Shown piece by piece: positions 1 through 13,176 of a stretch of 64,000 nt of DNA (positions are counted from its first letter, which is position 1; each line of letters starts with the position of its first letter). A program made the position numbers and the translations under genes. The DNA is taken from NCBI RefSeq assembly GCF_030818905.1, contig NZ_JAUTAZ010000001.1, positions 248,001-312,000 of the forward strand. The letters are read 5' to 3'. Source of the DNA: Microbacterium sp. SORGH_AS_0888. GTDB taxonomy: Bacteria > Actinomycetota > Actinomycetes > Actinomycetales > Microbacteriaceae. The notes under the pieces were generated by a model. It was not told the origin of the DNA. It saw only the letters and a list, made by a program, of their open reading frames with translations, and did not search any database.

Positions 1-61
1 CGCGGCAGCCCGAGCGCACGTGTCACGGAATGGAAACACGGACGTCACTCGGATGAAAACC

Positions 62-85
62 GTCAATGAGTCAATACCTATTGAC
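62..85. promoter_or_regulatory. Palindromic operator upstream of the amidase-cbt operon
   Basis: A perfect inverted repeat, GTCAATA-CC-TATTGAC, lies at 70-85, with a third direct half-site GTCAAT at 62-67. It is 69 bases before the amidase start. A 16-base sequence of the same design, 12 of 16 positions identical, lies at 5365-5380 before the nitrile hydratase operon. AT-rich symmetry in such GC-rich DNA, repeated before two operons of one pathway, suggests the operator of a dimeric repressor, most likely the ArsR-type protein encoded at 3500-3853. No convincing -10/-35 pair was found around it. Confidence 0.6.
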
Positions 86-153
86 AGGTAACACGCTCGC
101 GGTGGAGGCTGGACCGGCCCTCGCAGCAACGACGTTCGACGGAAGGATGCACC

Positions 154-1698
154 ATGGCTGTCAGCCGCCCTACGAAAGAGGACGTGAAGGCGTTCGCGCA
201 CCGCTTCCGTTACCAGTTCGACGAGTCGGAGTTCGATCAGCTCCATGAGATCGTGGTGGCCGGGCTCGCCGGCTACGACGTGGTCGACGAGCTGTACGCC
301 GCGCACATCGAGGTCGAGGCGCCCCGACGCGACTCCCGGTACCCGGACGCCGACGAGAACCCACTCGGCGCCTGGTATGTGCGGACCGAGATCGCTCCGA
401 CCTCCGCCGGCGTGCTCGATGGGCGGACGGTCGCCATCAAGGACAACGTCGCCGTGGCGGGCGTGCCGATGATGAACGGCTCGCGCACCCTCGAGGGCTT
501 CGTTCCGCGGGAGGATGCCACGGTCGTCACGCGCGTGCTCGCGGCGGGAGCGACGATCCTCGGCAAGGCGGTCTGCGAGGACCTCTGCTTCTCGGGGTCG
601 AGCTTCACCTCCGCGAGCGGGCCGGTCCACAACCCCTGGGATCTCGCCCGGACGACCGGCGGATCGTCCAGCGGCAATGCCGCACTCGTCGCCACGGGCG
701 AGGTCGACCTCGCGGTGGGCGGCGACCAGGGCGGATCGGTGCGGTTGCCGGCTTCCTTCACCGGGATCGTCGGGCACAAGCCCACCTTCGGCCTCGTCCC
801 GTACACGGGTGCGTTCCCGATCGAGCGGACCATCGACCACCTCGGGCCCATGGCGCGCACGGTGGAGGATGCGGCGCTGCTGCTGTCCGTGCTCGCCGGC
901 CCGGACGGCCTCGACCCGCGTCAGACGGAGGGCTCGCGCGGGCCCGGCGACCTCTCCACGGTCGGCGACGGCGTCGCGGGGCTGCGGATCGGACTGCTGA
1001 GCGAGGGATTCGGCATCCCCGGGATGTCGGACCCCGAGGTCGACGCGCTGGTCACCGCGGCGGCCGAGGCGCTTGCCGCAGACGGCGCCACGGTGACCCG
1101 GATCAGCGTGCCCGCGCACACGTACGCCGGCGCGCTGTGGGGGACGATCGCCTCGGACGGTGCCACGTACCAGATGCTCGACGGCAACGGCTACGGCCTC
1201 GGTGTGCCCGGCTACTACGACCCGCACCAGATGGAGTACTTCTCGCGAGGCAAGCGCGAGCACGCGGACGCCCTCGCGGACACCGTGAAGGTCACGGCGC
1301 TGACCGGCGCCTGGGGACTGCGCGGCCTCGGCGGTTCGTCGTACGCGAAGGCGCAGCGCCTCGTCCCCTTCGTGCGGGACGGCTACGACGCCGCGCTGGC
1401 CGAGGTCGACGTCCTCGTGCTGCCCACGACCCCGTTCACGGCGCTTCCGCTGCTCGAGGCCGGCGACGACCGGCCGGAGTACCTGCGCAAGGCGCTGAGC
1501 ATGATCGCCAACACATCCCCGCAGGACGTGACCGGCCACCCCGCGACCTCCGTGCCCGTGGGGCTGGCCTCCGGTCTCCCGGTCGGACTCATGGTGGTCG
1601 CGCCCCGTTTCAACGACGCACTCGGCCTGCGCGTCGCCGCCGCGGTCCAAGCCCAGCGCGGTCCGCTGACCCCGCCCGCCCTCGTGCACCACGCCTGA
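154..1698 (+). CDS. Nitrile-hydratase-linked amidase (amidase signature family)
   Basis: Amidase of 514 residues that hydrolyses a carboxamide to the acid and ammonia, the second step of nitrile use after nitrile hydratase. The Ser-cisSer-Lys triad is visible as K96 (AIKDN), S171 in GGSSSG and S195 in QGGSVR. From memory these are the same residue numbers as in the nitrile-hydratase-linked amidase of Rhodococcus sp. N-771, so close kinship is likely. The ATG at 154 follows a weak purine-rich site (GGAAGG). It opens a + strand operon with cbtB, cbtA and a phosphatase-like gene, and a palindromic operator lies at 70-85. It should be cytoplasmic, since there is no signal peptide. The family is certain. 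The substrate range (aliphatic or aromatic amides) cannot be read from sequence. Confidence 0.95.
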   Translation: MAVSRPTKEDVKAFAHRFRYQFDESEFDQLHEIVVAGLAGYDVVDELYAAHIEVEAPRRDSRYPDADENPLGAWYVRTEIAPTSAGVLDGRTVAIKDNVAVAGVPMMNGSRTLEGFVPREDATVVTRVLAAGATILGKAVCEDLCFSGSSFTSASGPVHNPWDLARTTGGSSSGNAALVATGEVDLAVGGDQGGSVRLPASFTGIVGHKPTFGLVPYTGAFPIERTIDHLGPMARTVEDAALLLSVLAGPDGLDPRQTEGSRGPGDLSTVGDGVAGLRIGLLSEGFGIPGMSDPEVDALVTAAAEALAADGATVTRISVPAHTYAGALWGTIASDGATYQMLDGNGYGLGVPGYYDPHQMEYFSRGKREHADALADTVKVTALTGAWGLRGLGGSSYAKAQRLVPFVRDGYDAALAEVDVLVLPTTPFTALPLLEAGDDRPEYLRKALSMIANTSPQDVTGHPATSVPVGLASGLPVGLMVVAPRFNDALGLRVAAAVQAQRGPLTPPALVHHA

Positions 1699-1731
1699 CA
1701 CCCACCCCCACCCCACGTAAGAGGAGAGATC

Positions 1732-1947
1732 ATGAGCACACACTCCGAGGTCGTCGCCGTCCCCACGGCGCGGACCGCCGGCGCCGCCGTCCGCGCACTG
1801 TGGATCGCCGGCGCGGTCCTGGTCGCGGCAGCGGCGTACTACTTCGTCGGAATCGACCAGGGCGTCGTGTCCGTCTTCGGGTCCGACACCCACATCCACG
1901 AGATGATGCACGACGGCCGGCACATGCTCGGCTTCCCGTGCCACTGA
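1732..1947 (+). CDS. cbtB: Cobalt transporter subunit CbtB
   Basis: Small membrane protein of 71 residues. It has one transmembrane segment at about residues 21-41 and a His-rich C-terminus (HIHEMMHDGRH and a final CH) expected to bind metal, which is the hallmark of CbtB. CbtB works with CbtA in cobalt uptake, a system usually tied to cobalamin. Here it sits 33 bases after the amidase and in the same cluster as a cobalt-type nitrile hydratase, so the cobalt is most likely for that enzyme. This parallels the cobalt permease NhlF of Rhodococcus rhodochrous J1, although the family is different. The ATG has a good GAGGAGAG site. Confidence 0.9.
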   Translation: MSTHSEVVAVPTARTAGAAVRALWIAGAVLVAAAAYYFVGIDQGVVSVFGSDTHIHEMMHDGRHMLGFPCH

Positions 1948-1958
1948 GAGGCGGAGCG

Positions 1959-2849
1959 ATGAGCGCTGAGTCGCGGATCGTCCTGGCCGGTGCCGGCGCG
2001 GGACTCGTTGCGGGGCTTCTCGGGGCCGTGGTGGCGCTCGTCGCCGTCGAGCCCTCGATCTCGGGGGCGATCGACTACGAGTCGATGCGCTCCGCCGCGG
2101 AGGCGGCCGTCGGCAGCGGCACGGGCGGGGACCACCACGCCATGCTCGATGCCGGCGCCGCCCATGACCACGGGGGCGGCGAGGAGGAGGTCGTGCCCCG
2201 CGGGGTGCAGGCCACCCTCGGCGTCTTCCTGTCCGTCGGTCTGTTCGGCATGGCGATGGGGCTGCTCATCGCGGTCGCGGCCTACGCCGTCCTGAAGCTC
2301 CTGCCGCAGCTCCCGGCCCGTCGGGCGGCGCTCGTCGCGGGGTCGCTCGCCTTCGTCGCGGGATTCCTCGTGCCCTACGCGAAGTACCCGAGCAACCCGC
2401 CCGCGATCGGCAGCCACGACGACCTCGTCGCCCGCACCGTCGCGTACTACTCGATGGTCGCGATCTCCGTGTTCGCGATGGTGATCGCGGTCGTCGTCGC
2501 GACGCGGCTCGCGAAGCGCTGGAGCTGGTTCTCGGCCACGCTCGCCGTGGGCGCCGGCTACCTCGTCGTGGTGATCGTCGCCGCGACGTTCCTGCCCTCG
2601 GTCGCGGAGATCGTGGGCGCGGCGTCCGAGATCCCGGGGCCCGTGACGGACGGCGACGAGATCATCCTGGACGGGTACCCCGCTGCGGTCCTCGGGGGAT
2701 TCCGCCTCGGCTCGCTGCTCGTGGCGACGACGATCTTCGGCGTCGCGACCGTGCTGCTCGCCGCCTTGGTCGGCGGACGGGGCGGCGACCGGCCGGTTCC
2801 CGTCGCCGCGCTCCAGGCGGGTGCCGGCGATCCCGTGCTCTCGCGGTGA
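1959..2849 (+). CDS. cbtA: Cobalt transporter subunit CbtA
   Basis: Membrane protein of 296 residues with about five to six hydrophobic segments. A His/Asp/Glu-rich loop follows the first segment (GGDHH, HDHGGGEEE, about residues 48-70) and is a plausible metal-collecting site. It starts 11 bases after cbtB with the site GGCGGAG and its stop overlaps the next gene by four bases (GTGA), so it belongs to the amidase operon. CbtAB is inferred to import cobalt for the cobalt-type nitrile hydratase at 5436-6748. No cobalamin riboswitch was recognised upstream, which fits control by the nitrile pathway rather than by B12. Confidence 0.88.
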   Translation: MSAESRIVLAGAGAGLVAGLLGAVVALVAVEPSISGAIDYESMRSAAEAAVGSGTGGDHHAMLDAGAAHDHGGGEEEVVPRGVQATLGVFLSVGLFGMAMGLLIAVAAYAVLKLLPQLPARRAALVAGSLAFVAGFLVPYAKYPSNPPAIGSHDDLVARTVAYYSMVAISVFAMVIAVVVATRLAKRWSWFSATLAVGAGYLVVVIVAATFLPSVAEIVGAASEIPGPVTDGDEIILDGYPAAVLGGFRLGSLLVATTIFGVATVLLAALVGGRGGDRPVPVAALQAGAGDPVLSR

Positions 2850-3427
2850 CGAACGCGGAAGGGAACGCCGCCCGTCGGGCCGAGATCGTGTTCGTCGTCC
2901 AGGCGACGACGAGATCTCAGCTGCGGGCGGCGTTCCCGGACGCGGACGACGAGCTCGCCCCGGCCGGTCGTGAGCTGTGTCGCAGGTCATCGCTGCGTCC
3001 GGGGCGCCACGAGGTCCTGAGCGCTCCGGGCCGGCCGTGCGCGCAGACCGTCGCGGCGCTCGGATGGGACGAGCCCCGTGTGGTCCCAAAGCTGCACGAC
3101 CCCGGGGCCGGTGAGTGGGCGGGACGCGAGGTCTCTTCGCTCTCCGAGGCGGACCTGGCCCGCTGGCGGGCGGGCGAGGCGCCCCCGGGCGGCGAGTCGT
3201 TCGGGGAGGTCTGCGCTCGGGTCGCGGATGTCGCGCGCTCGCTGCCGGGGGGACGGTACATCGCCGTCGTCCCGCAGGCGGTCGTGCGCGCCGCCGTGCT
3301 GACGGCGCTGGGCCTTCCGGTCGCGAGCATCTGGAACGTGGACGCCGAGCCGCTCGCCGTCGTGGGCGTGTCGCGGCGGCCCGACGGATCGCTCCGGCTC
3401 CGGCTGGTGTCGGGCGTCGGCGCGTAG
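2846..3427 (+). CDS. Histidine-phosphatase-fold protein lacking catalytic residues
   Basis: Protein of 193 residues with the general layout of the phosphoglycerate-mutase-like histidine phosphatases. It has an N-terminal strand, the later segments SAPGRPCAQT and DPGAGEWAG, and a final strand-helix. The signature RHG is replaced at residues 17-21 by VVQAT, and the second catalytic His motif (usually HGGV) reads VVPQAVV at 141-147. It therefore lacks both histidines and the first arginine and is probably not a phosphatase. It overlaps cbtA by four bases and closes the amidase-cbtB-cbtA operon. Histidine phosphatase family genes are familiar neighbours of cbtA. A role in cobalt handling is only an inference. 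Confidence 0.7.
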   Translation: MTNAEGNAARRAEIVFVVQATTRSQLRAAFPDADDELAPAGRELCRRSSLRPGRHEVLSAPGRPCAQTVAALGWDEPRVVPKLHDPGAGEWAGREVSSLSEADLARWRAGEAPPGGESFGEVCARVADVARSLPGGRYIAVVPQAVVRAAVLTALGLPVASIWNVDAEPLAVVGVSRRPDGSLRLRLVSGVGA

Positions 3428-3499
3428 CCGACCGTCCGGCGACGCGGGGCGGTAGACTTCCGGTGTTCAGCGTGTAGACACGAAGAGGGAGAGTGACAC

Positions 3500-3853
3500 A
3501 TGGACGCGGACAGCGTGTTCGATTCCCTCTCCAGCTCGGTGCGCCGCGACATCCTGACGTTCCTGGCGGCCCACGGCGATGCGAGCGCGGGCGAGATCGC
3601 GGATGAGATCTCGGATGTCGGCCGGACCTCGGTCTCGACCCACCTCCGTATCCTTCGCTCGTCGGGGCTCGTCCGGGAGCGTCGCGCCGGACGGCAGCGG
3701 TTCTACTCGCTCGATCGCGAAGGGTCCGCGATGATCGCGGTGGGCTACTTCCGCTCCCTGATGAGCGACGCGCTCGAGGATGTCGACCGAGCGCCGGCTT
3801 CGGCGGCCACCGCGCCGATCTCCTCGGTGCAACGCGCTCGACGCGCCGGCTGA
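3500..3853 (+). CDS. ArsR-family winged-helix repressor
   Basis: DNA-binding protein of 117 residues. It opens with the ArsR pattern (FDSLSSSVRRDILTFL), has a recognition helix at about residues 46-58 (RTSVSTHLRILRSSGLV) and a beta-wing ending in GRQRFYSL. There is no ELCVCDL-type metal site, so it is probably not a metal sensor. The next gene starts seven bases later and holds an AmiC-like amide-binding domain. In Rhodococcus rhodochrous J1 the low-molecular-mass nitrile hydratase cluster likewise has an ArsR-like regulator (NhlD) beside an AmiC-like protein (NhlC). It is the best candidate to bind the shared palindromes at 70-85 and 5365-5380. ATG at 3500, site GAGGGAGAG. Confidence 0.88.
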   Translation: MDADSVFDSLSSSVRRDILTFLAAHGDASAGEIADEISDVGRTSVSTHLRILRSSGLVRERRAGRQRFYSLDREGSAMIAVGYFRSLMSDALEDVDRAPASAATAPISSVQRARRAG

Positions 3854-3860
3854 TCGTCCC

Positions 3861-5258
3861 GTGTCGGGCATCGTCCTCACGGCGACGCGCGACGTGGCGG
3901 CGACGCCCGAGGTCGTGTTCGAGACCTTCGGCGTGTGGCTGTTCAATGCGATGTGCGAGCGGCTCGAGGTCGGCCAGCCGATCACGCTCACCGTGCCGTT
4001 CGGGGGAGCGGGAGCGGGGTTCACGATCTTCGGACGCATCCGCCGTGTCGTGTGGGGGCGATCGATCTCCATCGAGCACTCGCAGCCGTGGCAGGGGACG
4101 GTCCGACTCCGGCTGACCCCCATCGCCGCCGGCACACGCGTGTCCCTCTCGTGCGACGTCGACGATGCCGGTGTGGACTGGATGGTGCGGCGCACGGGGA
4201 TCCCCTCGTCGCCGGCCGCACGCTCGCGGGGCCGGCGATGGGGTCTGCTCACGACGAAGTCCGGCTCGGGGGCGGTGTTCGCCCTCGGCGCGGAGAACGC
4301 GGCGCTGCTGGCGATCGAGGAGATGAACGCCTCGGGCACGGGGCCGCCGAACGAGCTGTTCGTCGGCGACGACGCCACGGATCCGACGATGGCGGCGATC
4401 GAGGCCGAGCGGCTCATCGCCGCGGGCTGTCGCGTGATCGTGGCCGCGGTGATCTCGGCGAGCTTCGCGGCGGTGCGCCAGGTCGCGCAGCGGCACGGTG
4501 TGCTGGCGATCCATTCGCTGCTGAACGAGGGCGGACGTCCGGCGCGCTCCGCGCTGCGGCTCGGTGAGCGCCCCGCCCATCAGTTGCGGGCGGCGCTCGT
4601 GCCGCTCATGCGGGAGACGGGCGGGTCGCGATGGTTCATCGTCGGCCACACCTACTCGTGGTCGCTGGCGGCGGGGCGCGTGGCGCGCGCGATGCTGGCG
4701 GAGGCCGGTGCCCAGGTGGTCGGGGAGGCGCGTCTGCCACTGCGCCACCCCGACTACGCCCCGGTCGTCGAGCGCATCCAGCGCTCGGGCGCCGACCTCG
4801 TGCTCACCAGCCTCGTCGGCGACGACGAGGTGCGGTTCGAGCGCAGCAGCCACCAGCTCGGGCTCCGAGCCAGAGCGACGACGCTCTCTCTCGTGCTCGA
4901 CGAGTCGACACGGGAGCACATCGGGGCCGAGCAGAGCGCGGGCGTCTGGGCGGCGATGGGCTACTTCGAGGCCTTCCCGTCCTCCGTCAACCAGGAGTTC
5001 GTCGCACGCTACCGGGCGCGCTTCGGTGCGTGGGCCCCGCCGTTGTCGAGCCTCTCCGAGTCGGTCTACAGCGCGCTCCTGCTCCTCGATCGCGCCCTGG
5101 CGGAGGAGCCGGACGCGACACCCGAGCTCCTCGCCAAGGCGGTGCGGCGCGTCCGGCTCGAGACGCCGCGGGGTCTTCTCACCTTCGGCGACGAGGAGAC
5201 GTACGCCTCCACGACCCGGCTCGCGATCGCGGGTCGTGCGGGGTTCGAGCTGCGCTGA
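3861..5258 (+). CDS. SRPBCC domain fused to AmiC-like amide sensor
   Basis: Protein of 465 residues joining two families. Residues 1-115 are a SRPBCC/AHSA1-like domain (an N-terminal ATRDVAATPEVVFETF strand and helix, and a basic QPWQGTVRLRLTP strand near 76-88). Residues 125-465 are a periplasmic-binding-protein fold of the AmiC type (RRWGLLTTKSGSGAVFALG, then LLAIEEMNASG). There is no signal peptide, so the AmiC part should act in the cytoplasm as amide sensors do. GTG at 3861 is chosen because it begins the SRPBCC strand and lies seven bases after the repressor stop; an in-frame start at 3780 would lie inside the repressor gene. ArsR genes are often followed by a SRPBCC gene, and here that partner is fused to the sensor. 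It probably modulates the repressor. Confidence 0.82.
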   Translation: MSGIVLTATRDVAATPEVVFETFGVWLFNAMCERLEVGQPITLTVPFGGAGAGFTIFGRIRRVVWGRSISIEHSQPWQGTVRLRLTPIAAGTRVSLSCDVDDAGVDWMVRRTGIPSSPAARSRGRRWGLLTTKSGSGAVFALGAENAALLAIEEMNASGTGPPNELFVGDDATDPTMAAIEAERLIAAGCRVIVAAVISASFAAVRQVAQRHGVLAIHSLLNEGGRPARSALRLGERPAHQLRAALVPLMRETGGSRWFIVGHTYSWSLAAGRVARAMLAEAGAQVVGEARLPLRHPDYAPVVERIQRSGADLVLTSLVGDDEVRFERSSHQLGLRARATTLSLVLDESTREHIGAEQSAGVWAAMGYFEAFPSSVNQEFVARYRARFGAWAPPLSSLSESVYSALLLLDRALAEEPDATPELLAKAVRRVRLETPRGLLTFGDEETYASTTRLAIAGRAGFELR

Positions 5259-5364
5259 GTGCCCCCGTTTGTGTCGGGCGTGTGAATTTCTGAGCGCGAG
5301 CGGCGCAAAGCTCGTGTCCGCGCTTGACGAATGGCGGGGGAGCGAGTTCTCTATACCTCAACGC

Positions 5365-5380
5365 GTCAGTAAGTCTTGAC
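5365..5380. promoter_or_regulatory. Palindromic operator upstream of the nitrile hydratase operon
   Basis: GTCAGTAAGTCTTGAC, whose outer GTCA and TGAC arms are symmetric. It is identical at 12 of 16 positions to the perfect palindrome at 70-85. It lies 55 bases before the hydratase beta gene and just downstream of a possible -10 (TATACC, 5352-5357), a position where a repressor would block transcription. A TTGACG at 5324-5329 is too far from that box (22 bases) for a standard -35, so the promoter assignment is weak. Confidence 0.6.
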
Positions 5381-5435
5381 GTAATGACACGAGCGGAGCA
5401 GCGTGCTCCCTCCGATCGCAGAAAGAGAGCGAGCT

Positions 5436-6143
5436 ATGAACGGAGTGTTCGACCTCGCCGGCACCGACGGCATCGGGCCCGTCGTCGTGCCGAAGAGCGA
5501 ACCCACCTTCCGGGCCGAGTGGGAGAAGGCCGTCTTCCCCATGTTCGCGATGTGCTTCCGAGCGGGCTTCTTCGGCGTCGACGAGTTCCGGCACGGGATC
5601 GAGCTCATCGATCCCGTGGTGTACCTCACGTCGCCCTACTACGAGCACTGGGTGCACACCGTCGAGCACTACGGGCAGAAGCGCGGCGTGCTCGACATGG
5701 AAGAGCTGGACCGCCGCACCGAGTACTACCTCGCCAACCCGGACGCCCCTCTTCCGGAGCATGCGGACGACCCCGAGCTGCTCGCCTTCGTCGACGCCGT
5801 CGTGAAGGCGGGCGCGACCGCGAAGCGCGAGTCCGACAAGCCGGCGAGCTTCCAGGTCGGAGACGTCGTGCGCGTCGAGCGCGACGCGCCCCACGGGCAC
5901 ACCCGGCGGGCGAGGTACGTGCGCGGGGCCGTCGGCGAGATCGTCTTCGCCCACGGCGTCTTCATCTACCCCGACACGGCGGGGAACGGGCTCGGCGAGG
6001 CGCCCGAGCACGTCTACACGGTCCGATTCACGGCGGAGGAGCTCTGGGGGACCGGTGCCGACCAGCCGCACGACTCGGTCTACTTCGATGTCTGGGAACC
6101 CTACATCGAACTCGTTGAGCGCAAGGGAGAGACAGCAGCATGA
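5436..6143 (+). CDS. nthB: Nitrile hydratase beta subunit
   Basis: Beta subunit of 235 residues, opening with the family signature [16 protein letters not shown] and ending in the SH3-like barrel (about residues 138-230: [35 protein letters not shown]). It pairs with alpha to form the enzyme that hydrates nitriles to amides in the cytoplasm. The ATG at 5436 is used rather than the upstream ATG at 5403 because it matches the family N-terminus and follows AGAAAGAGAG. It overlaps alpha by four bases. The order beta-alpha-activator is typical of cobalt-type clusters. The intergenic stretch before it (5259-5435) holds the operator copy at 5365-5380. Confidence 0.96.
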
Positions 6144-6748
6144 GTTCACACATCCGCAGCCAGGAGGAGATCGCCGCGCGCGTGAAGGCGCTCGAGTCGA
6201 TGCTGATCGACAAGGGCATCATGACCACGCAGGCGATCGACCGGATGGTCGAGATCTACGAGAACGAGGTCGGGCCCCAGCTCGGCGCGCGTGTCGTCGC
6301 CAAGGCATGGGCGGATCCGGAGTTCAAGGCCCGGCTCCTCCACGACGCCTCAGAGGCCTGCGCGGAGCTCGGGATCAGCGGCCTCCAGGGCGAGGACATG
6401 GTCGTCGTCGAGGACACCCCCGAGGTGCACAACATCATCGTGTGCACGCTGTGCTCGTGCTACCCGTGGCCCGTCCTCGGCCTGCCCCCGAACTGGTACA
6501 AGGACCCGCAGTACCGTGCCGCGATCACGCGGGAGCCGCGCAAGGTCCTCAGCGAGGCCTTCTCCTACGATCTGCCCACCGACGTCGAGGTCCGTGTGTG
6601 GGACTCGAGCAGCGAGATGCGCTACTGGGTCCTGCCGCAGCGTCCCGCCGGCACCGAGGGGTGGACGGAGGAGCAGCTCTACGAGCTGGTGACCCGCGAC
6701 TCGATGATCGGGGTGGGCGCCACCAAGAGCCCGGCGGAGCTCGCATGA
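6140..6748 (+). CDS. nthA: Nitrile hydratase alpha subunit, cobalt type
   Basis: Catalytic alpha subunit of 202 residues. The metal-binding claw is C102-T-L-C105-S-C107 (in [10 protein letters not shown]). The Thr in the second position marks the cobalt form; iron forms have CSLCSC. In the family the second and third cysteines are oxidised to sulfinic and sulfenic acids when the noncorrin cobalt is inserted. The gene overlaps beta by four bases at its start and the activator by four bases at its end, so the three are translationally coupled. The cobalt call agrees with cbtA-cbtB in the same island. Confidence 0.97.
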
Positions 6749-7176
6749 CCTCGGTGCTGCCCTCTCCCTACGTCGACGACGGCGATCTCGAGCGCGACCG
6801 TCGGCTGGTGGAGGAGCTCGTCTGCGACCTTCCCGGCGGCTCGCCGGATCAGCTGTCGTTCGAGAAGCCGTGGGAGATCCGCGCCTTCGCCCTGGCGGTC
6901 ACGGCGTATCACGCGAAGAAGTTCGACTGGGGGCAGTTCCAGTCGGCACTCATCGCCTCCATCGCGGAGTGGGAGTCGCGGGGCGGCGATCGCGACAGCG
7001 ATCCGTGGTCGTACTACGAGCACTGGCTCGTCGCCCTCGAAGGCGTGATGGAGGCCGCGGGCGACATCGACGCCGCGGCCCTCGACGCCCGCACGGCCGA
7101 GGTCCTCGCCACGCCCGCCAACCGGAACCACCACGAGGCGCACCCGGAGCCGATCGCGATCGATCCCGCGCGCTGA
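6745..7176 (+). CDS. Nitrile hydratase accessory protein (activator)
   Basis: Protein of 143 residues of the nitrile hydratase activator family, related to the N-terminal part of the beta subunit ([42 protein letters not shown]). In cobalt-type systems this small protein (NhhG/NhlE of Rhodococcus J1) forms a complex with alpha and delivers cobalt by swapping places with beta. The ATG at 6745 overlaps the alpha stop. A strong hairpin at 7181-7222 directly after the gene closes the operon. Confidence 0.9.
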
Positions 7177-7180
7177 GGTC

Positions 7181-7222
7181 ACGGTGGGGAGGGGAGACGC
7201 TCTCGCGTCCCCTCCCCACCGT
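7181..7222 (+). terminator. Terminator of the nitrile hydratase operon
   Basis: Perfect 15-base-pair stem (7181-7195 with 7208-7222, ACGGTGGGGAGGGGA and its complement) and a 12-base loop, starting four bases after the activator stop. There is no T tract, as is common in high-GC actinobacteria. The convergent cupin gene ends 24 bases further on, so it may serve both strands. Confidence 0.75.
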
Positions 7223-7245
7223 CGTCCCGCTCGTCGGCCGGACCC

Positions 7246-7764
7246 TCAGGTCTCCGGCGAGGTGAGGGCCGCGACGAGGGCGGCGTCGAACCACTCCGGC
7301 GCCGCGTCGTCGGGCACGGCCGGCGGCTCGAACCAGACGCGGTCGGGCGTCCACGCCGGAGTGAGGACGCTCGCGATCAGCGCGAACCCCTTCGGATCGA
7401 GCAGCCGCAGGGCCTTCGTCGAGCCGGCGGCGCAGGGGATGACGAGCTCCTGGCCGGCGTCGACGCGGTGACCGAGCACGCGTCTGGTGACCTCGCCCGT
7501 GCTCGAGACGATCACGTACTCGACCGGGCCGCCGTCGAGGAGAACGTGGACGTCGTCCGGGGCCAGCCGATGCCAGTAGTTGACCGGTCGTTCCTCGTCC
7601 AGCAGGTAGTAGATGGAGCTGTGCGCGTCGAGCTCCGCTCCGCCTTCGCGCACGCGAAGAGTCGAACGCGACAGCGGCGCCCACCACCCGGATTCGATGG
7701 GAAGCGGCTCGAGCGCGAGCGCGCGTCGCCAGGAGGCGGATCGATCGGCGGCGAGAGGCGGCAT
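7246..7764 (-). CDS. Cupin superfamily protein (DUF985-like)
   Basis: Protein of 172 residues with the Cupin_5/DUF985 layout: an N-terminal ESGWWAPLSRST strand, HSSIYYLLDEE, then the cupin core around W-H-R-L (NYWHRL, DDVHVLLDGGPVEYVIV) and a second motif GQELVIPCAAGS. The family folds as a single beta-barrel and its reaction is not established. It is divergent from the aldolase gene at 7808, with only 43 bases between the starts. The island on its left is convergent with it, so there is no functional link to nitrile use. Confidence 0.8.
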   Translation of the reverse strand: MPPLAADRSASWRRALALEPLPIESGWWAPLSRSTLRVREGGAELDAHSSIYYLLDEERPVNYWHRLAPDDVHVLLDGGPVEYVIVSSTGEVTRRVLGHRVDAGQELVIPCAAGSTKALRLLDPKGFALIASVLTPAWTPDRVWFEPPAVPDDAAPEWFDAALVAALTSPET

Positions 7765-7807
7765 ACCCCCAGGATCGCAGATCGCGCGTCGGCGGTACTC
7801 TCGACCC

Positions 7808-9049
7808 GTGGACCTCGATCTGCTGTCACCGCCCGGTGCACGCGAGCCGTGGCGTGACGCGGGCTCCTACTGGGACGCCATGACCCGCGCCACGCACGAG
7901 CTGCCGGCGCCGGTCGCGGCGCTGAGCGCCGACGCACTGCGCTACAACGCGCTCGACATGCTCGTGCGTGCGGGCGGTGTGCCGGTGCGCGTCGCGAGCA
8001 AGTCGATCCGGGTCCGTGCGGTCCTCGACGCGCTGCTGCGGGTCCCGGGCTTCCGCGGCATTCTCGCCTTCACGCTCCCCGAGGCGCTCTGGCTCGCCTC
8101 CGCCGACGGCGGCGGGCACGACGACATCGTCGTCGGGTACCCGACCGTCGACCGAGCCGCGCTCGCTCGTCTGACCGCGGACGCGGAGGCTGCCGAGCGG
8201 ATCACGCTCATGGTCGACGACGCGGCGCAGCTCGACGTGCTCGACAGCGTCGCCGCGCCCGGAACGAGGCCCGAGATCCGTGTCGCGATCGACGCGGACG
8301 CCTCGTGGCGATCGTCCGTCCTCGGCCACGTCGGCGTGCGGCGGTCACCCGTGCACGACGCCGACGAGGTCGCACGGCTCGGGCGGACGGTCGCGGCGCG
8401 CGCCGGCGTGCGGCTCGTCGGACTCATGATGTACGAGGCGCAGATCGCGGGTCAGCCGGATGCCGCCGGCCCCGCGGATCCGGTGATCCGGTGGATGCAG
8501 CGCCGGTCGGCGGCGGAACTGCTCGATCGTCGCGCCGCCATCGTCGCCGCGCTCCACGACATCGCGCTGCTCGAGTTCGTGAACGGGGGAGGGACGGGCT
8601 CCCTCGAGGTGACCTCCGCGGACCCCGCTGTGACGGAGCTGACCGCCGGCAGCGGTCTGCTCGCCGGCCATCTCTTCTCGCACTATCGCGCGTTCGACCC
8701 GGCACCGGCGGCGGCGTTCGCGCTCGACGTCGTGCGCCGCCCGCTGCCGGACGTCGCGACGGTTCTGGGCGGCGGCTGGGTCGCCTCGGGCCCACCGCTC
8801 GCCTCCCGGCAGCCCGAGCCCGTCTGGCCGGCGGGGCTGCGGACGCTGGGCCGTGAGGGCACGGGCGAGGTGCAGACCCCGCTGTCGGGTGCGTCCGCGC
8901 GGTCGCTGCGGATCGGTGACCGCGTCTGGTTCCGTCACGCGAAGAGCGGCGAGCTGGCGGAGCGCGTCGACGCCTATGCGCTCGTGGACGACGACCGCGT
9001 CGTGGGATCCGTTCCCACCTATCGAGGCGAGGGGAAGGCGTTCCTGTGA
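7808..9049 (+). CDS. PLP-dependent amino acid aldolase/deaminase (D-threonine aldolase-like)
   Basis: Fold-type III PLP enzyme of 413 residues, related to alanine racemase and D-threonine aldolase. The cofactor lysine is K65 in RVASKSIRV. The C-terminal barrel holds a metal-binding-type motif (VWFRHAKSGELAERVD). Members cleave or deaminate D-3-hydroxy amino acids; the natural substrate here is unknown. The GTG at 7808 follows TACTCT (7796-7801) by exactly six bases, suggesting a leaderless transcript. The stop overlaps the next gene, a sugar-lactone oxidase, by four bases. This pair is common in Microbacteriaceae but its joint role is unclear. Confidence 0.85.
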   Translation: MDLDLLSPPGAREPWRDAGSYWDAMTRATHELPAPVAALSADALRYNALDMLVRAGGVPVRVASKSIRVRAVLDALLRVPGFRGILAFTLPEALWLASADGGGHDDIVVGYPTVDRAALARLTADAEAAERITLMVDDAAQLDVLDSVAAPGTRPEIRVAIDADASWRSSVLGHVGVRRSPVHDADEVARLGRTVAARAGVRLVGLMMYEAQIAGQPDAAGPADPVIRWMQRRSAAELLDRRAAIVAALHDIALLEFVNGGGTGSLEVTSADPAVTELTAGSGLLAGHLFSHYRAFDPAPAAAFALDVVRRPLPDVATVLGGGWVASGPPLASRQPEPVWPAGLRTLGREGTGEVQTPLSGASARSLRIGDRVWFRHAKSGELAERVDAYALVDDDRVVGSVPTYRGEGKAFL

Positions 9050-10359
9050 CGCGGCCCGGCGGCGTCTGGCGCAACTGGGCGCGCAGCGCCTCGGTGCGTC
9101 CGGTGAGGATCGAGTTCCCGGCCTCGACGGCCGCCGTGCAGCGCGCCGTCCGTGCGGCGGCGGCGCGCGGTCTGCCCGTCAAGGCGGTCGGCAGCGGTCA
9201 CAGCTTCAGCGAGATCGCCGTGGCCCCCGGCATCCTGCTCGACCTTCGCGACCTGACGGGCCTCGTATCGGTCGATCGCGAACGCCGCCGCGTGACGCTG
9301 CGCGCCGGCACGCGCCTGCGCCAGATCCCGCACCTGCTCGCCCCGTACGGCTGGGCGATGACGAACCTCGGCGACATCGACCGGCAGACGATCGCGGGCG
9401 CGATCTCCACCGGGACGCACGGCACGGGCGCCCGGTTCGGAGGGCTGTCGACGCAGGTCGTCGGCGTCACGGTGGTCACCGCGGACGGCGACCTGCTCCG
9501 CGTGGACGAGTCGCACGAGCCGGAGCTGCTCCCGGCGCTCGCGCTGAGCCTCGGAGCGCTCGGTGTCCTGGTCGAGGTCACGGTGCAGGTCGTGCCCGCC
9601 TTCCTCCTGCGCGCCGTCGAGCGACGGGAGGGGCTGGACGACCTCCTGCCGGAGCTGGCGGACCGTGCTGCGGGGGAGGACCACTTCGAGTTCTACTGGT
9701 TCCCGCGCACCGACGTCGCGCTCACCAAGAGCAACGCCCGGTTGCCGGAGAGCGAGCCGCGCCAGCCGCTGCCGCGGATCGGGGGCTGGATCGAGGACAC
9801 GGTCCTGTCCAATCACGCCTACCGTGCGATGTGCGCTGCGGCCGCCGCCGTCCCGGCACTGTCGACGCCGCTGGCACGCCTGGGCGCGCGCACGATCGGC
9901 GCCCGCACGTACACCGACCGGTCGCACCGTGTCTTCACCCAGGACCGCGACGTCCGGTTCCGTGAGATGGAGTACGCGGTGCCGGTCGAGCGTCTCCCCG
10001 CGGTGTTCGGCGCGTTGCGCGAGCTCGTCGACACCGAGCCCTGGCCCGTCTCGTTCCCCGTGGAGGTGCGCATCGCCGAGGGCGACGATCGGTGGATGTC
10101 GACGGCGTACGAGCGCGACAGCGGTTACATCGCCGTGCACAGGTACTGGCGGGAGGACCCGACGTCCTACTTCCGGGCCGTCGAGGAGCTCATGCAGGAG
10201 CACGACGGGCGTCCGCACTGGGGGAAGATGCACACGCTGGACGCCGCCGTCCTGCGCTCCCGCTATCCGCGATTCGACGATTTCCTCGCGGTGCGCGACC
10301 GTCTCGACCCGCAGCGCCGTTTCGCCAACGCCTATCTGGATCGCGTCCTGGGGCAGTGA
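9046..10359 (+). CDS. FAD-dependent D-arabinono-1,4-lactone oxidase family protein
   Basis: Flavoprotein of 437 residues of the vanillyl-alcohol-oxidase type. The FAD domain is N-terminal (GSGHSF at residues 49-54; THGTGARFGGLSTQVVG near 124-140). The ALO domain is C-terminal, with the typical HWGK at 391-394. Relatives oxidise aldonolactones (L-gulono-, D-arabinono-lactone) or alditols. It is translationally coupled to the upstream aldolase (GTGA overlap). No membrane anchor is seen. The exact sugar substrate is not predictable. Confidence 0.88.
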   Translation: MTRPGGVWRNWARSASVRPVRIEFPASTAAVQRAVRAAAARGLPVKAVGSGHSFSEIAVAPGILLDLRDLTGLVSVDRERRRVTLRAGTRLRQIPHLLAPYGWAMTNLGDIDRQTIAGAISTGTHGTGARFGGLSTQVVGVTVVTADGDLLRVDESHEPELLPALALSLGALGVLVEVTVQVVPAFLLRAVERREGLDDLLPELADRAAGEDHFEFYWFPRTDVALTKSNARLPESEPRQPLPRIGGWIEDTVLSNHAYRAMCAAAAAVPALSTPLARLGARTIGARTYTDRSHRVFTQDRDVRFREMEYAVPVERLPAVFGALRELVDTEPWPVSFPVEVRIAEGDDRWMSTAYERDSGYIAVHRYWREDPTSYFRAVEELMQEHDGRPHWGKMHTLDAAVLRSRYPRFDDFLAVRDRLDPQRRFANAYLDRVLGQ

Positions 10360-10408
10360 TCCCCGCGGAGCGTAGGATGCTCTCAACAGGGAACGGAGAA
10401 CACGGCAT

Positions 10409-10978
10409 ATGTGGGAATGGCTCATCCCGGTTCTGATCGTGGTCGCGCTCGTCGTGATCGTGGGCATCTACCTCTGGGCGACGTACAACTCGCTCGTTCA
10501 ACTCGCCGTCCGCGTCGACGAGGCCTGGAGCGACATCACCGTTCAGCTCAAGCGTCGCGCCGACCTCCTGCCGAACCTCATCGAGACGGTGAAGGGATAC
10601 GCGGCGCACGAGAAGGCCGTGTTCGAGAACGTCACCCAGGCCAGGGCCGAGACGATCAACGCGACGGGGCCCGCCTCGGCCGGAGTGGCGGAGGGGCACA
10701 TGCAGCAGGCGCTGAAGTCGTTGTTCGCCGTGGCGGAGGCCTACCCGCAGCTGCAGGCGAGCCAGAACTTCCTGCAGCTGCAGCAGCAGATCGTCGACAC
10801 GGAGGACAAGATCCAGGCCTCCCGCCGGTTCTACAACGGTGGCGTGCGCGAGCTCAACACGAAGATCAAGGTGTTCCCGAACAACCTGTTCGCGCGTCGG
10901 CTGGGGTTCTCGGAGCGTGAGTTCTTCGAGGTCGTCGACGGCGCGGCGATCGCCGAGCCGCCCCGCGTGCAGTTCTGA
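10409..10978 (+). CDS. LemA family protein
   Basis: Protein of 189 residues with an N-terminal transmembrane helix (about residues 5-27) followed by the LemA four-helix domain (YNSLVQLAVRVDEAWSDI, LKRRADLLPNLIETVKGYA, ARRFYNGGVRELN-type motif near 134). LemA proteins are membrane-anchored with unknown function and are often encoded next to an M48 protease, as here (22 bases upstream of 11000). TAGGAT at 10372-10377 could be its -10. ATG at 10409. Confidence 0.93.
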   Translation: MWEWLIPVLIVVALVVIVGIYLWATYNSLVQLAVRVDEAWSDITVQLKRRADLLPNLIETVKGYAAHEKAVFENVTQARAETINATGPASAGVAEGHMQQALKSLFAVAEAYPQLQASQNFLQLQQQIVDTEDKIQASRRFYNGGVRELNTKIKVFPNNLFARRLGFSEREFFEVVDGAAIAEPPRVQF

Positions 10979-10999
10979 TCCGGGCCGGCTGAGGCTGGC

Positions 11000-11887
11000 G
11001 TGTATTCAGCGATCGCGCGGAACAAGCGCAACACCTGGTTCATCCTCATCGGATTCCTCCTGCTGCTGGCCGCCATCGGCCTGCTGGCGGGATGGCTCGC
11101 CGGCAACAACTGGTGGCTCACCGCGATCATCCTCGTCTTCGCGGCGGGGTACGCGGTCGTGCAGTACTTCGCCGCCGACAGGGAGGCCCTCGCCCTGGCG
11201 GGCGCGGTAGAGGTGTCGCAGACAGATGCGCCGCGCTACTACCGGCTCGTGGAGAACCTCTGCATCGCGACGGGGACCCCGATGCCGCGTCTCTACGTGG
11301 TCGAGGACGCCGCGCCCAACGCGTTCGCCATGGGCCGGACGCCCGAGAAGGCCGCGATCACGGTCACGACCGGGCTCTTCGAGAGCATGACGGACCGCGA
11401 GCTGGAGGGAGTGCTCGGACACGAGCTCGGACACATCCGCAACTACGACATCCGCGTCTCCCTGATCGTGTTCGGCCTGGTCGTGGCCGTCGGGATCGTC
11501 GCCGACATGCTCCTGCGGTTCGCCTTCTTCGGCGGTGCCCGCCGCAGCGGCAACAACCAGGCGCAGGTGATCTTCCTCGTGTTCGGTGTCATCGCCGCGC
11601 TGGTGGCGCCCTTGATCGCGGGAGCCGTGCAGGCGGCGATCTCGCGGCAGCGCGAGTACCTCGCGGACGCGACGAGCGCCCTCACGACCCGGGACCCGGA
11701 GGGACTGGCCTCGGCGCTCCAGAAGCTCCAGGAGCACGGTGCGCCGCTGCAGCGGGCGAACACCTCGATGGCGCACCTCTGGATCGCGGACCCGCTCCGG
11801 CCCGGCGCCCTCTCGCGGATGTTCGCGACACATCCGCCGCTCGCGGACCGCATCGAACGGCTCCACGAGATGGGCGGACGGTTCTAG
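11000..11887 (+). CDS. M48 family zinc metalloprotease (HtpX-like)
   Basis: Membrane protease of 295 residues. It has two N-terminal transmembrane helices (about 13-33 and 37-57), the zinc site H141-E-L-G-H145, two more hydrophobic segments (about 154-172 and 189-212) and the third ligand E219 in QREYLAD. HtpX-type enzymes degrade misfolded membrane proteins. The GTG at 11000 gives the expected short N-terminus. It is paired with LemA upstream. Confidence 0.93.
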   Translation: MYSAIARNKRNTWFILIGFLLLLAAIGLLAGWLAGNNWWLTAIILVFAAGYAVVQYFAADREALALAGAVEVSQTDAPRYYRLVENLCIATGTPMPRLYVVEDAAPNAFAMGRTPEKAAITVTTGLFESMTDRELEGVLGHELGHIRNYDIRVSLIVFGLVVAVGIVADMLLRFAFFGGARRSGNNQAQVIFLVFGVIAALVAPLIAGAVQAAISRQREYLADATSALTTRDPEGLASALQKLQEHGAPLQRANTSMAHLWIADPLRPGALSRMFATHPPLADRIERLHEMGGRF

Positions 11888-11894
11888 CCGACCG

Positions 11895-11919
11895 GACGCC
11901 GCGGCCGGCGGCCGGCGTC
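11895..11919. terminator. Probable convergent terminator
   Basis: GACGCCG (11895-11901) pairs with CGGCGTC (11913-11919) in the 32-base gap between the convergent M48 gene and the glycosylase-like gene, with GC-rich sequence between the arms. The stem is short (7 pairs), so confidence is limited. Confidence 0.4.
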
Positions 11920-13176
11920 TCAGGCAGTCGCGGGCTCGTCCGCGGCCAACGCGACCGGCTCGGGACCCGCCTCGTGACGTTCGGCATCGGGCAGTGCCCG
12001 GGCCAGGTCCTCGACCGCGTCGCCCCAGCGCGAGATCGAGATGCCCGACAGGCCCTGCCAGGCCGCCGCGTCGCGCAGGACGCCGGCGAGCCGCTCGGCG
12101 GCGTCCTGCGGCCGGGCGCGCTCCCACCAGGCCGACTGCACCCGCAGCACCGAGCCGGCGCGGTCCGCCTTCAGATCGACGCGGCCGACGACGTCGTCGC
12201 CCAGGACGACCGGGAGCGAGTAGTAGCCGAACCGGCGCTTCGCCGCCGGCGTGTAGATCTCGATGCGGTAGTCGAAGTCGAACAGCCGCTCGGCGCGCGG
12301 ACGGAACCACACGACCGGATCGAACGGTGTGAGCACGGTCGCGGCGTCGAGCGCGCGCGGCACGCTCGCCTCGCGGTGGAGCCAGGCGCCGCGGCGCCAC
12401 CCCTCGACCTCCACCGGCTGCAGCACGCCCTCGCGCTCGAGGTCGGCGACGACCGCGGCCGTCGTGCGCTGGTCGCCGAGGCGCCAGTAGTCGTCGAGGT
12501 CGGCGACCGTCGCGACGCCCGAGGCGCGTGCGGCGCGCTCGACGAGCACGCGGAGCGCGTCGGCGCGCTCGACGTGCCGATCGATCACGGTCGCCGGCAG
12601 GACGTCGGCGGCGAGGCCGTAGACCCGCTCGAATCCGCGGCGCCCCGCGATGGCGACCTCGCCCGTGAACCAGAGGTACTCCAGCGCGCTCTTGACGGCG
12701 CTCCAGTCCCACCACGGGCCCCGCGGGGTCCGCAGTGCGTCCTGCTCGATCTGCGCGGGGCGCACCGGTCCGCGCTCGGCGAGCTCGTCACGCACCCAGG
12801 CCAGCGTCTGGTCGGACACGGAGAACCAGCCCTTCTGCTCGTGCCGCTCGCGGTGCTCCGCCATCCGGAAGCGGAAGAGCGGCCAGTCCTCCGCCGCGAT
12901 GAACGCGGCCTGATGGGCCCAGAACTCGACGTACGGGGAGCGCCGGGAGAAGGCGAGGCGGTCGAGGCGGTCGCGGTCGTAGGGCCCGAGCCGCGAGAAG
13001 AGCGGCATGTAGTGCGAACGCGCGAAGACGTTGACGGAGTCGATCTGCAGCACCGACATGCGGCCGAGCTCCCGATGAAGGTGACGATCGGTGACGCGGG
13101 ACACGCGGCTCGAGCCGACTCCCTGAGCGGAGAGGGCGACGCGGCGGGCCTGGGACCGGGAGAGTCGAGTGCGCAC
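11920..13176 (-). CDS. AlkX/YcaQ-like DNA glycosylase family protein (HTH_42)
   Basis: Protein of 418 residues of the AlkZ/YcaQ family of three-winged-helix DNA glycosylases. The catalytic-type Q-phi-D motif appears near the N-terminus as LQIDSVNVFARSHYMP, followed by the FxxxGPYD region. QID rather than QxQ places it with YcaQ (AlkX), which opens interstrand crosslinks, rather than with AlkZ. The GTG at 13176 follows TAAGCT (minus strand, 13184-13189) by seven bases, which suggests leaderless expression. It lies alone, convergent with the M48 gene and divergent from the AI-2E permease. Confidence 0.85.
   Translation of the reverse strand: MRTRLSRSQARRVALSAQGVGSSRVSRVTDRHLHRELGRMSVLQIDSVNVFARSHYMPLFSRLGPYDRDRLDRLAFSRRSPYVEFWAHQAAFIAAEDWPLFRFRMAEHRERHEQKGWFSVSDQTLAWVRDELAERGPVRPAQIEQDALRTPRGPWWDWSAVKSALEYLWFTGEVAIAGRRGFERVYGLAADVLPATVIDRHVERADALRVLVERAARASGVATVADLDDYWRLGDQRTTAAVVADLEREGVLQPVEVEGWRRGAWLHREASVPRALDAATVLTPFDPVVWFRPRAERLFDFDYRIEIYTPAAKRRFGYYSLPVVLGDDVVGRVDLKADRAGSVLRVQSAWWERARPQDAAERLAGVLRDAAAWQGLSGISISRWGDAVEDLARALPDAERHEAGPEPVALAADEPATA

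Follow-up and report, generated by a model that had tools for sequence, protein, structure and literature searches.

The 64,000-nucleotide stretch of Microbacterium sp. SORGH_AS_0888 analysed here (the window) encodes, close to its start, a protein that combines an SRPBCC-type domain with a ligand-binding domain resembling the amide sensor AmiC. It lies between a gene for an ArsR-family repressor and the genes for a nitrile hydratase (NHase). This arrangement raises the question of why an amide sensor should begin with such a domain, and whether the domain could be what ties amide binding to the neighbouring repressor.

The fusion gene and its neighbourhood

The fusion and the genes around it, all on the forward strand, are as follows:

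154..1698, +, amidase of the amidase signature family (PF01425)
1732..1947, +, CbtB, probable cobalt transporter subunit (PF09489, E 7e-9)
1959..2849, +, CbtA, probable cobalt transporter subunit (PF09490, E 2.5e-51)
2846..3427, +, histidine-phosphatase-family protein after CbtA (PF00300, E 4e-11)
3500..3853, +, ArsR-family repressor (presumably NhlD-type), 117 aa, without cysteine
3861..5258, +, fused SRPBCC/amide-sensor protein (presumably NhlC-type), 465 aa
3861..4193, +, N-terminal SRPBCC domain of the fusion, residues about 1-111
4242..5195, +, AmiC/urea-binding-type ligand-binding domain of the fusion, residues 128-445
5436..6143, +, NHase beta subunit (ATG start chosen; the listed ORF runs from 5403)
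6140..6748, +, NHase alpha subunit
6745..7176, +, NHase accessory protein

The presence of cobalt transporter genes in the cluster suggests that the NHase is of the cobalt type. A search of Rfam over positions 1-12000 gave no match. A histidine-phosphatase-family gene follows CbtA in several NHase clusters (window 1959-3427; loci L001, L045, L046 and L023), and its product perhaps has a role in cobalt supply.

The frame of the fusion is open over 465 codons from a GTG start, which is supported by the aligned relatives beginning at the same place, and 7 bases separate it from the end of the ArsR frame. Residues 128-445 are covered by Peripla_BP_6 (PF13458; E 1.2e-60, 206.5 bits against a curated cut-off of 31.7), and this C-terminal part matches the AmiC structure 1pea (E 3e-15) and also resembles the binding proteins for urea and branched-chain amino acids. 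Both parts are under purifying selection: dN/dS against two close relatives is 0.21 and 0.18 for the N-terminal part and 0.19 and 0.13 for the C-terminal part, and against a third relative 0.42 and 0.29, respectively. The reverse strand of 3861-5258 is likewise open, as GC-rich coding DNA often yields an open opposite strand.

Two trivial accounts of the protein can be dealt with at this point. The first is that two normally separate genes were joined by chance or by an error of assembly, the latter a possibility that the earlier note had itself raised. This is exceedingly improbable and was rejected, since the same continuous frame recurs in several independent genomes as well as on plasmids and selection is purifying on both parts. 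The second takes the protein for an ABC transporter's substrate-binding component with an odd N-terminus, as its database names and its resemblance to proteins that bind urea and branched-chain amino acids would have it. We consider this very improbable and rejected it too: the match to the urea transporter protein UrtA falls far short of the curated cut-off (123.4 against 492.75 bits, NCBIfam), the protein starts with the SRPBCC domain and, judged by eye, has no signal sequence, none of the genes identified from 154 to 7176 encodes an ABC permease, and in 24 of 25 loci the gene directly upstream is that of an ArsR (see below).

The N-terminal region is a divergent SRPBCC domain

Searched as a single sequence against Pfam, residues 1-101 match Polyketide_cyc2 below the threshold (E 0.057). 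Across the 74 members of the family, single-sequence matches at E<=1 were obtained with Polyketide_cyc2 for eight (best 0.0059) and with AHSA1 for four (best 1.2e-4). A search of the PDB with the N-terminus returned one weak match (3q6a, E 0.0016, 45 positions), and a search of NCBIfam (15 pieces) gave nothing relevant for it. Single-sequence searches thus barely detect the domain. A profile of the N-terminal region, in which 67 of the 74 rows were kept, was compared by hhalign with profiles made from the AHSA1 and Polyketide_cyc2 loci of relatives. It aligns nearly end to end with AHSA1 over 105 columns at a probability of 93.5 (E 2.4e-7; E-values of this kind are those of single comparisons) and with Polyketide_cyc2 over 87 columns at 93.4, as against 0.2 and 0.1 for reversed controls, 0.3 for ArsR and 3.2 for part of the binding-protein domain. 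A smaller profile (A3) gave a non-significant probability of 0.7 with the one double-AHSA1 protein of the same genome, and no stand-alone relative of the domain was found at E 1e-3 among 3551 candidates.

The profile comparisons place the domain in the SRPBCC superfamily, as a divergent member. The earlier note had described a single 465-residue frame in which an SRPBCC/AHSA1-like domain is joined to the AmiC-type fold seven bases after the ArsR gene, and had proposed searching Pfam and structure databases with each half. The open reading frame, Pfam, 1pea and, for the N-terminus, the profile comparison confirm this description, as do the ends of the two genes (3853 and 3861).

The fused form is the norm in a known regulator family

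Database searches gave 92 matches, of which 74 are full-length proteins with both parts (the window's own protein and 73 relatives). The remainder, omitted from this set, are seven truncated or broken sequences (P0060, P0072, P0073, P0079, P0080, P0082 and P0083) and 11 distant proteins whose alignments take in only 58-72% of the query (P0084-P0094). The genera with the fusion include Microbacterium, Pseudonocardia, Amycolatopsis, Nocardioides, Nocardia and Rhodococcus. Its distribution is sporadic: it occurs in 6 of 247 Microbacterium genomes, with the window's own genome counted; 396 genomes of the phylum yielded 11 matches, two of them full-length; and 397 genomes of one order yielded nine matches covering both parts, plus one broken copy. 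Among plasmid records, nine match with a query coverage of at least 80%, and the fusion is present in all eight that were examined, seven from Rhodococcus and one from Paenarthrobacter.

Papers of 1996 reportedly described a regulator pair of Rhodococcus J1 named NhlC/NhlD, and we take the window's fusion to be of the NhlC type and its ArsR partner to be of the NhlD type. In R. rhodochrous BAA-870, genes for an ArsR and a fused sensor precede those for NHase beta, NHase alpha, the accessory protein, a nickel/cobalt transporter and an amidase, in that order, and ArsR and the fused sensor are found again in four Rhodococcus clusters near-identical to it (L025, L102-L104; BAA-870 itself is L024). 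One article gives the NHase of BAA-870 as identical in sequence to the low-molecular-mass NHase of J1 and cites the 1996 paper on the J1 cluster (PMC6983157); a 1996 paper on NhlC/NhlD is also in the reference list of PMC11573777. On the strength of this identity we infer that NhlC of J1 also carries the SRPBCC domain. The contrast that the earlier note drew with J1, where the ArsR-like and AmiC-like regulators were held to be separate proteins, very probably fails, given the fused sensor beside ArsR in BAA-870 as a proxy.

Judged from these sequences, the joined form is the usual one of a known regulator family and not a one-off, and the pair in the window is a Microbacterium orthologue of the NhlC/NhlD amide-responsive switch. 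The earlier note's remark that it knew of no described example probably does not hold for the NhlC/NhlD pair as such. Among the open-access papers searched, we found no text that describes the SRPBCC part, an operator or the coupling considered below. No open-access paper was found that combines nitrile hydratase with NhlC and NhlD, and among the matches listed for nhhC/nhhD in the open-access literature none was related. The regulator family was thus already known; what is new is the SRPBCC identity of the N-terminal domain, the association of this domain with an ArsR partner and the candidate operator.

Fused sensors go with ArsR, their unfused sisters with MarR

Once the broken copy L090 is set aside, 21 of 21 fused loci have the ArsR gene immediately before the fusion and in the same orientation, with a spacing of -19 to +88 bases that depends on the starts chosen; the same holds for three of three further annotated plasmid loci. 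Overall, this makes 24 of 25 loci, L090 being the exception. Near-identical members among the fused loci are L024, L025 and L102-L104, and likewise L048 and L049; loci that repeat others (L003, L004, L029, L030, L040-L044 and L047) were counted once. At L090 (7612-9010) the broken fusion copy lies in two overlapping frames without an adjacent ArsR gene, and an NHase accessory-like frame is nearby.

The unfused sister sensors, without an SRPBCC domain, belong to what we take to be the NhhC/NhhD type, the name of the unfused pair of the other Rhodococcus NHase. These adjoin a MarR gene (10/10, 28/29 and, additionally, L028), which amounts to 36 of 36 distinct NhhC-type loci, 20 of them from one genus. 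Of 78 unfused matches listed, 31 were checked; MarR is present at 30 and absent at one, L039, which falls outside the NhhC-type clade. In a phylogeny of the binding-protein domain (78 rows, without the duplicates L036 and L037 and without L090), the 42 fused proteins form one clade (SH-aLRT 98) and 17 unfused proteins, representing 17 of the 36 NhhC-type loci, form the neighbouring one (SH-aLRT 99). The correlation between domain and partner is accordingly a single evolutionary split, i.e., one contrast and not many, and could reflect inherited company rather than function.

The ArsR partner

The window's ArsR is recognized as an ArsR-type winged-helix protein above the curated cut-off (NF033788, 64 against 55 bits). 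It has no cysteine and hence no cysteine metal site, which makes thiol-based metal sensing by it unlikely. The ArsR of BAA-870 (L024 5638-5976) differs from those of L025 and L102-L104 at one position, an arginine-to-cysteine change in the wing; arginine is the residue at this position in 20 of 21 related ArsRs. The NHase of this strain is reported as constitutive (PMC6941271). Taken together, these hint that ArsR acts as a repressor, though this is a correlation, and the change could be a sequencing error.

The earlier note had envisaged a one-component route from amide binding to repressor control. This wording fails, since a Pfam search found no DNA-binding domain in the fusion frame and ArsR is encoded by a separate gene directly upstream in nearly every locus. 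Another reading makes the fusion a positive regulator acting independently of ArsR, e.g., on RNA polymerase or mRNA, much as AmiC works through AmiR, next to a separate and possibly metal-responsive ArsR repressor. A different ArsR protein, CblA, controls a Rhodococcus NHase in response to cobalt (PMC7689651), and the cluster in the window contains cobalt transport genes. Against this reading, the window's ArsR lacks cysteine, the NhlD-type ArsRs group apart from CblA (see below), and ArsR and fusion stay adjacent and in the same order across the 24 loci, even where the NHase is elsewhere or was not found. We hold such an independent activator to be improbable.

ArsR-AHSA1 gene pairs as a possible source of the domain

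We found AHSA1 matches in 48 of 58 relatives. A related ArsR gene, detected like those below with a model derived from the NhlD-type ArsRs, is present within the fetched 2.4-3.4 kb at 29 of the 30 AHSA1 loci listed, one per genome, the miss being L108. Near Polyketide_cyc2 loci the count is 2 of 30 (L148 and L154), and both of these are places with an AHSA1 match as well. The only AHSA1 frame found in the window's own genome encodes the double AHSA1 protein (G000:C1:2112908-2113813, L101), directly after an ArsR gene. ArsR-AHSA1 operons are also recorded in Frankia, in a paper that calls the link not elucidated (PMC4531530).

In a tree of ArsR proteins the NhlD type groups with the AHSA1-paired ArsRs and three other ArsRs of the same genome, apart from four further own-genome ArsRs and CblA (support 99/96). 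Many inner branches of this tree are weak; two of the nine own-genome ArsR loci (L172 and L173) gave no match and are absent, and one row inside the NhlD clade (A_L130, 28% filled, branch length 7.5) is taken as unreliable. These loci and the Frankia operons bear out the note's premise that pairs of ArsR and SRPBCC genes occur commonly, and the idea that the amide sensor captured the usual partner of ArsR fits both the locus counts and the tree.

SRPBCC folds typically bind ligands, and an alternative is that the domain provides a second ligand pocket, which might accommodate, for instance, the acyl or aryl moiety of bulky nitriles or amides, with the AmiC-type domain or its dimer face making the contact to ArsR. 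The divergence of the domain and the failure to find a stand-alone relative would suit such a role, but it leaves aside that the domain tracks the ArsR partner and is absent where the partner is MarR, and that AHSA1 genes of relatives so regularly have ArsR close by. We regard a second pocket as unlikely, although less so than an independent activator. A broader proposal is that SRPBCC proteins beside ArsR genes are anti-repressors in general, and that they carry a signal to their ArsR; the NhlC family would be the one case in which this signal is known, owing to the fusion of the domain to an amide sensor. To our knowledge no signal has been identified for the ArsR-AHSA1 pairs. This generalization is tentative and rather doubtful at present; if true, it would give these common gene pairs a mechanism.

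A candidate operator before both enzyme operons

The gaps ahead of the amidase and of NHase beta each hold an inverted repeat with two 12-base halves separated by 2 bases:

61..86, +, candidate operator for ArsR (inverted repeat, 12-2-12), 67 bases ahead of the start of the amidase; the right half contains TTGACA
5364..5389, +, candidate operator for ArsR (inverted repeat, 12-2-12), 46 bases ahead of the start of NHase beta

An alignment of three Microbacterium genomes shows the repeat conserved in the gap before NHase beta, and the pattern of 5364-5389 at up to three mismatches has no match in 100 shuffles of the window. A half-site model made from the three Microbacterium sites finds the second copy at 61-86, and at 10 of 19 loci outside the model (L024, L025, L045, L050 and L081-L086) its top match falls within the gap that precedes the enzyme operon, or at the border of this gap. 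With models from which the respective group was left out, 14 of 21 fused loci exceed the maximum of 60 Markov shuffles, in a test not wholly independent of the three-site model, since the sites used, those of the other groups, had been chosen as matches of it. None of 11 unfused control loci reaches 12 bits. The dyad is weak or absent in 7 of the 21 fused loci (L023, L027, L045, L048, L087, L089 and L090), in a set that includes L090 and omits the near-duplicates L047 and L049. Over the whole genome, a single contig of 3.64 Mb, the two-site pattern has no third match at up to three mismatches, and its reversed control has no match.

By eye, a -35-like TTGACA or TTGACG can be made out in the right half at nine loci (L024, L025, L050, L081-L083, L085, L086 and L088), all of which show a TANNNT-like sequence or TTGGAT some 17-18 bases further on. 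A repressor bound there is predicted to block the promoter, because the right half of the repeat holds the -35-like element. No clear -10 was seen by eye at the amidase site of the window, a promoter and terminator scan of 5200-5450 returned nothing, and the Microbacterium loci showed no conserved dyad ahead of the ArsR gene. The two sites would place the operon from amidase to fusion, and hence the regulators themselves, under one control with the NHase operon. The candidate operators at L001 (2179-2212) and L046 (4208-4241) hold further GTCAAT-like half-sites at 8-base steps, and overlapping or extended binding sites are possible there.

A model for the coupling of amide binding to derepression

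The model that we favour, at a probability of roughly 60%, starts from what is visible in the sequences themselves, namely the fusion with its two parts, the ArsR gene upstream, the two clades and the repeats before both enzyme operons. It holds that ArsR represses at the repeats and that the amide-bound fusion would relieve this repression through its SRPBCC domain. An ArsR dimer would bind both repeats and block transcription of the amidase-cbtBA-phosphatase-arsR-fusion operon and of the NHase operon. The fusion, whose lack of a recognizable signal sequence and N-terminal SRPBCC domain are in line with this, would stay in the cytoplasm, where an amide product would bind the cleft of the C-terminal domain; the N-terminal domain would then contact ArsR and free it from DNA. 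The SRPBCC domain would in this way be a coupling module recruited from the common pairing of ArsR and SRPBCC genes. Accordingly worded at the level of function, the fusion probably senses amides and, with the adjoining ArsR, probably serves to switch on the nitrile-degrading genes.

Amides may not be the ligands in every case, because five of the 21 fused loci (L026, L048, L049, L050 and L089) are without an NHase in the fetched stretch, and fused sensors may serve other ligands. At L026 the NHase is about 9 kb away and the ArsR-fusion pair is beside a metal-type ABC transporter; at L048, L049 and L089 the pair is near an amidase and no NHase was found. L048 and L049, from two Microbacterium genomes (about 7.9-12.1 kb), stand out as the most divergent of the fused proteins in the tree (branch 1.67), and no dyad was detected at L048. 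At L050 (7657-13555), in a genome of the same phylum as the window's, ArsR and the fusion are followed by the dyad, a gene for an AMP-binding acyl-CoA ligase and then one for an acyl-CoA dehydrogenase; a non-amide ligand is possible for this sensor.

Strains with NHase produce acrylamide and nicotinamide industrially (PMC6983157, PMC6941271). The amide switch of NHase is known by its genes, and no coupling mechanism for it was found in open-access papers. What the sequences show points to a specific interface, that of the SRPBCC domain with ArsR, and to a concrete candidate operator, and the proposed coupling offers a testable meaning for the widespread ArsR-AHSA1 pairs.

Comparison with known systems

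The closest counterpart is the cluster on plasmid pNit of BAA-870, used here as a proxy for J1, which likewise has the ArsR gene, the fused sensor, cobalt NHase genes, a cobalt transporter and an amidase. Its sensor is 44% identical to the window's fusion over 453 residues, N-terminal domain included. The gene order differs, the cobalt transporter is of the NiCoT type there as opposed to CbtAB here, and the window has an extra phosphatase gene and an amidase that heads the regulator operon. CblA shares with the window's ArsR the family and the link to NHase control, but groups with other ArsRs and not with the NhlD type.

AmiC of Pseudomonas aeruginosa (1pea, 1qo0), an amide sensor that acts on the antiterminator AmiR, has the same binding-protein fold as the fusion but neither an SRPBCC domain nor an ArsR partner. 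The actinobacterial ArsR-AHSA1 pairs resemble the window in having an ArsR gene beside an SRPBCC gene and in ArsRs that group together; there, however, the SRPBCC protein is encoded separately, whereas here it forms the front of the amide sensor. Finally, the NhhC/NhhD-type pair, for which plasmid p1 of Rhodococcus sp. M8 stands as proxy, also has an AmiC-type sensor by an NHase cluster and belongs to the sister clade, but is without the SRPBCC domain and has MarR in place of ArsR. These two sister systems, ArsR with the domain and MarR without it, are directly comparable.
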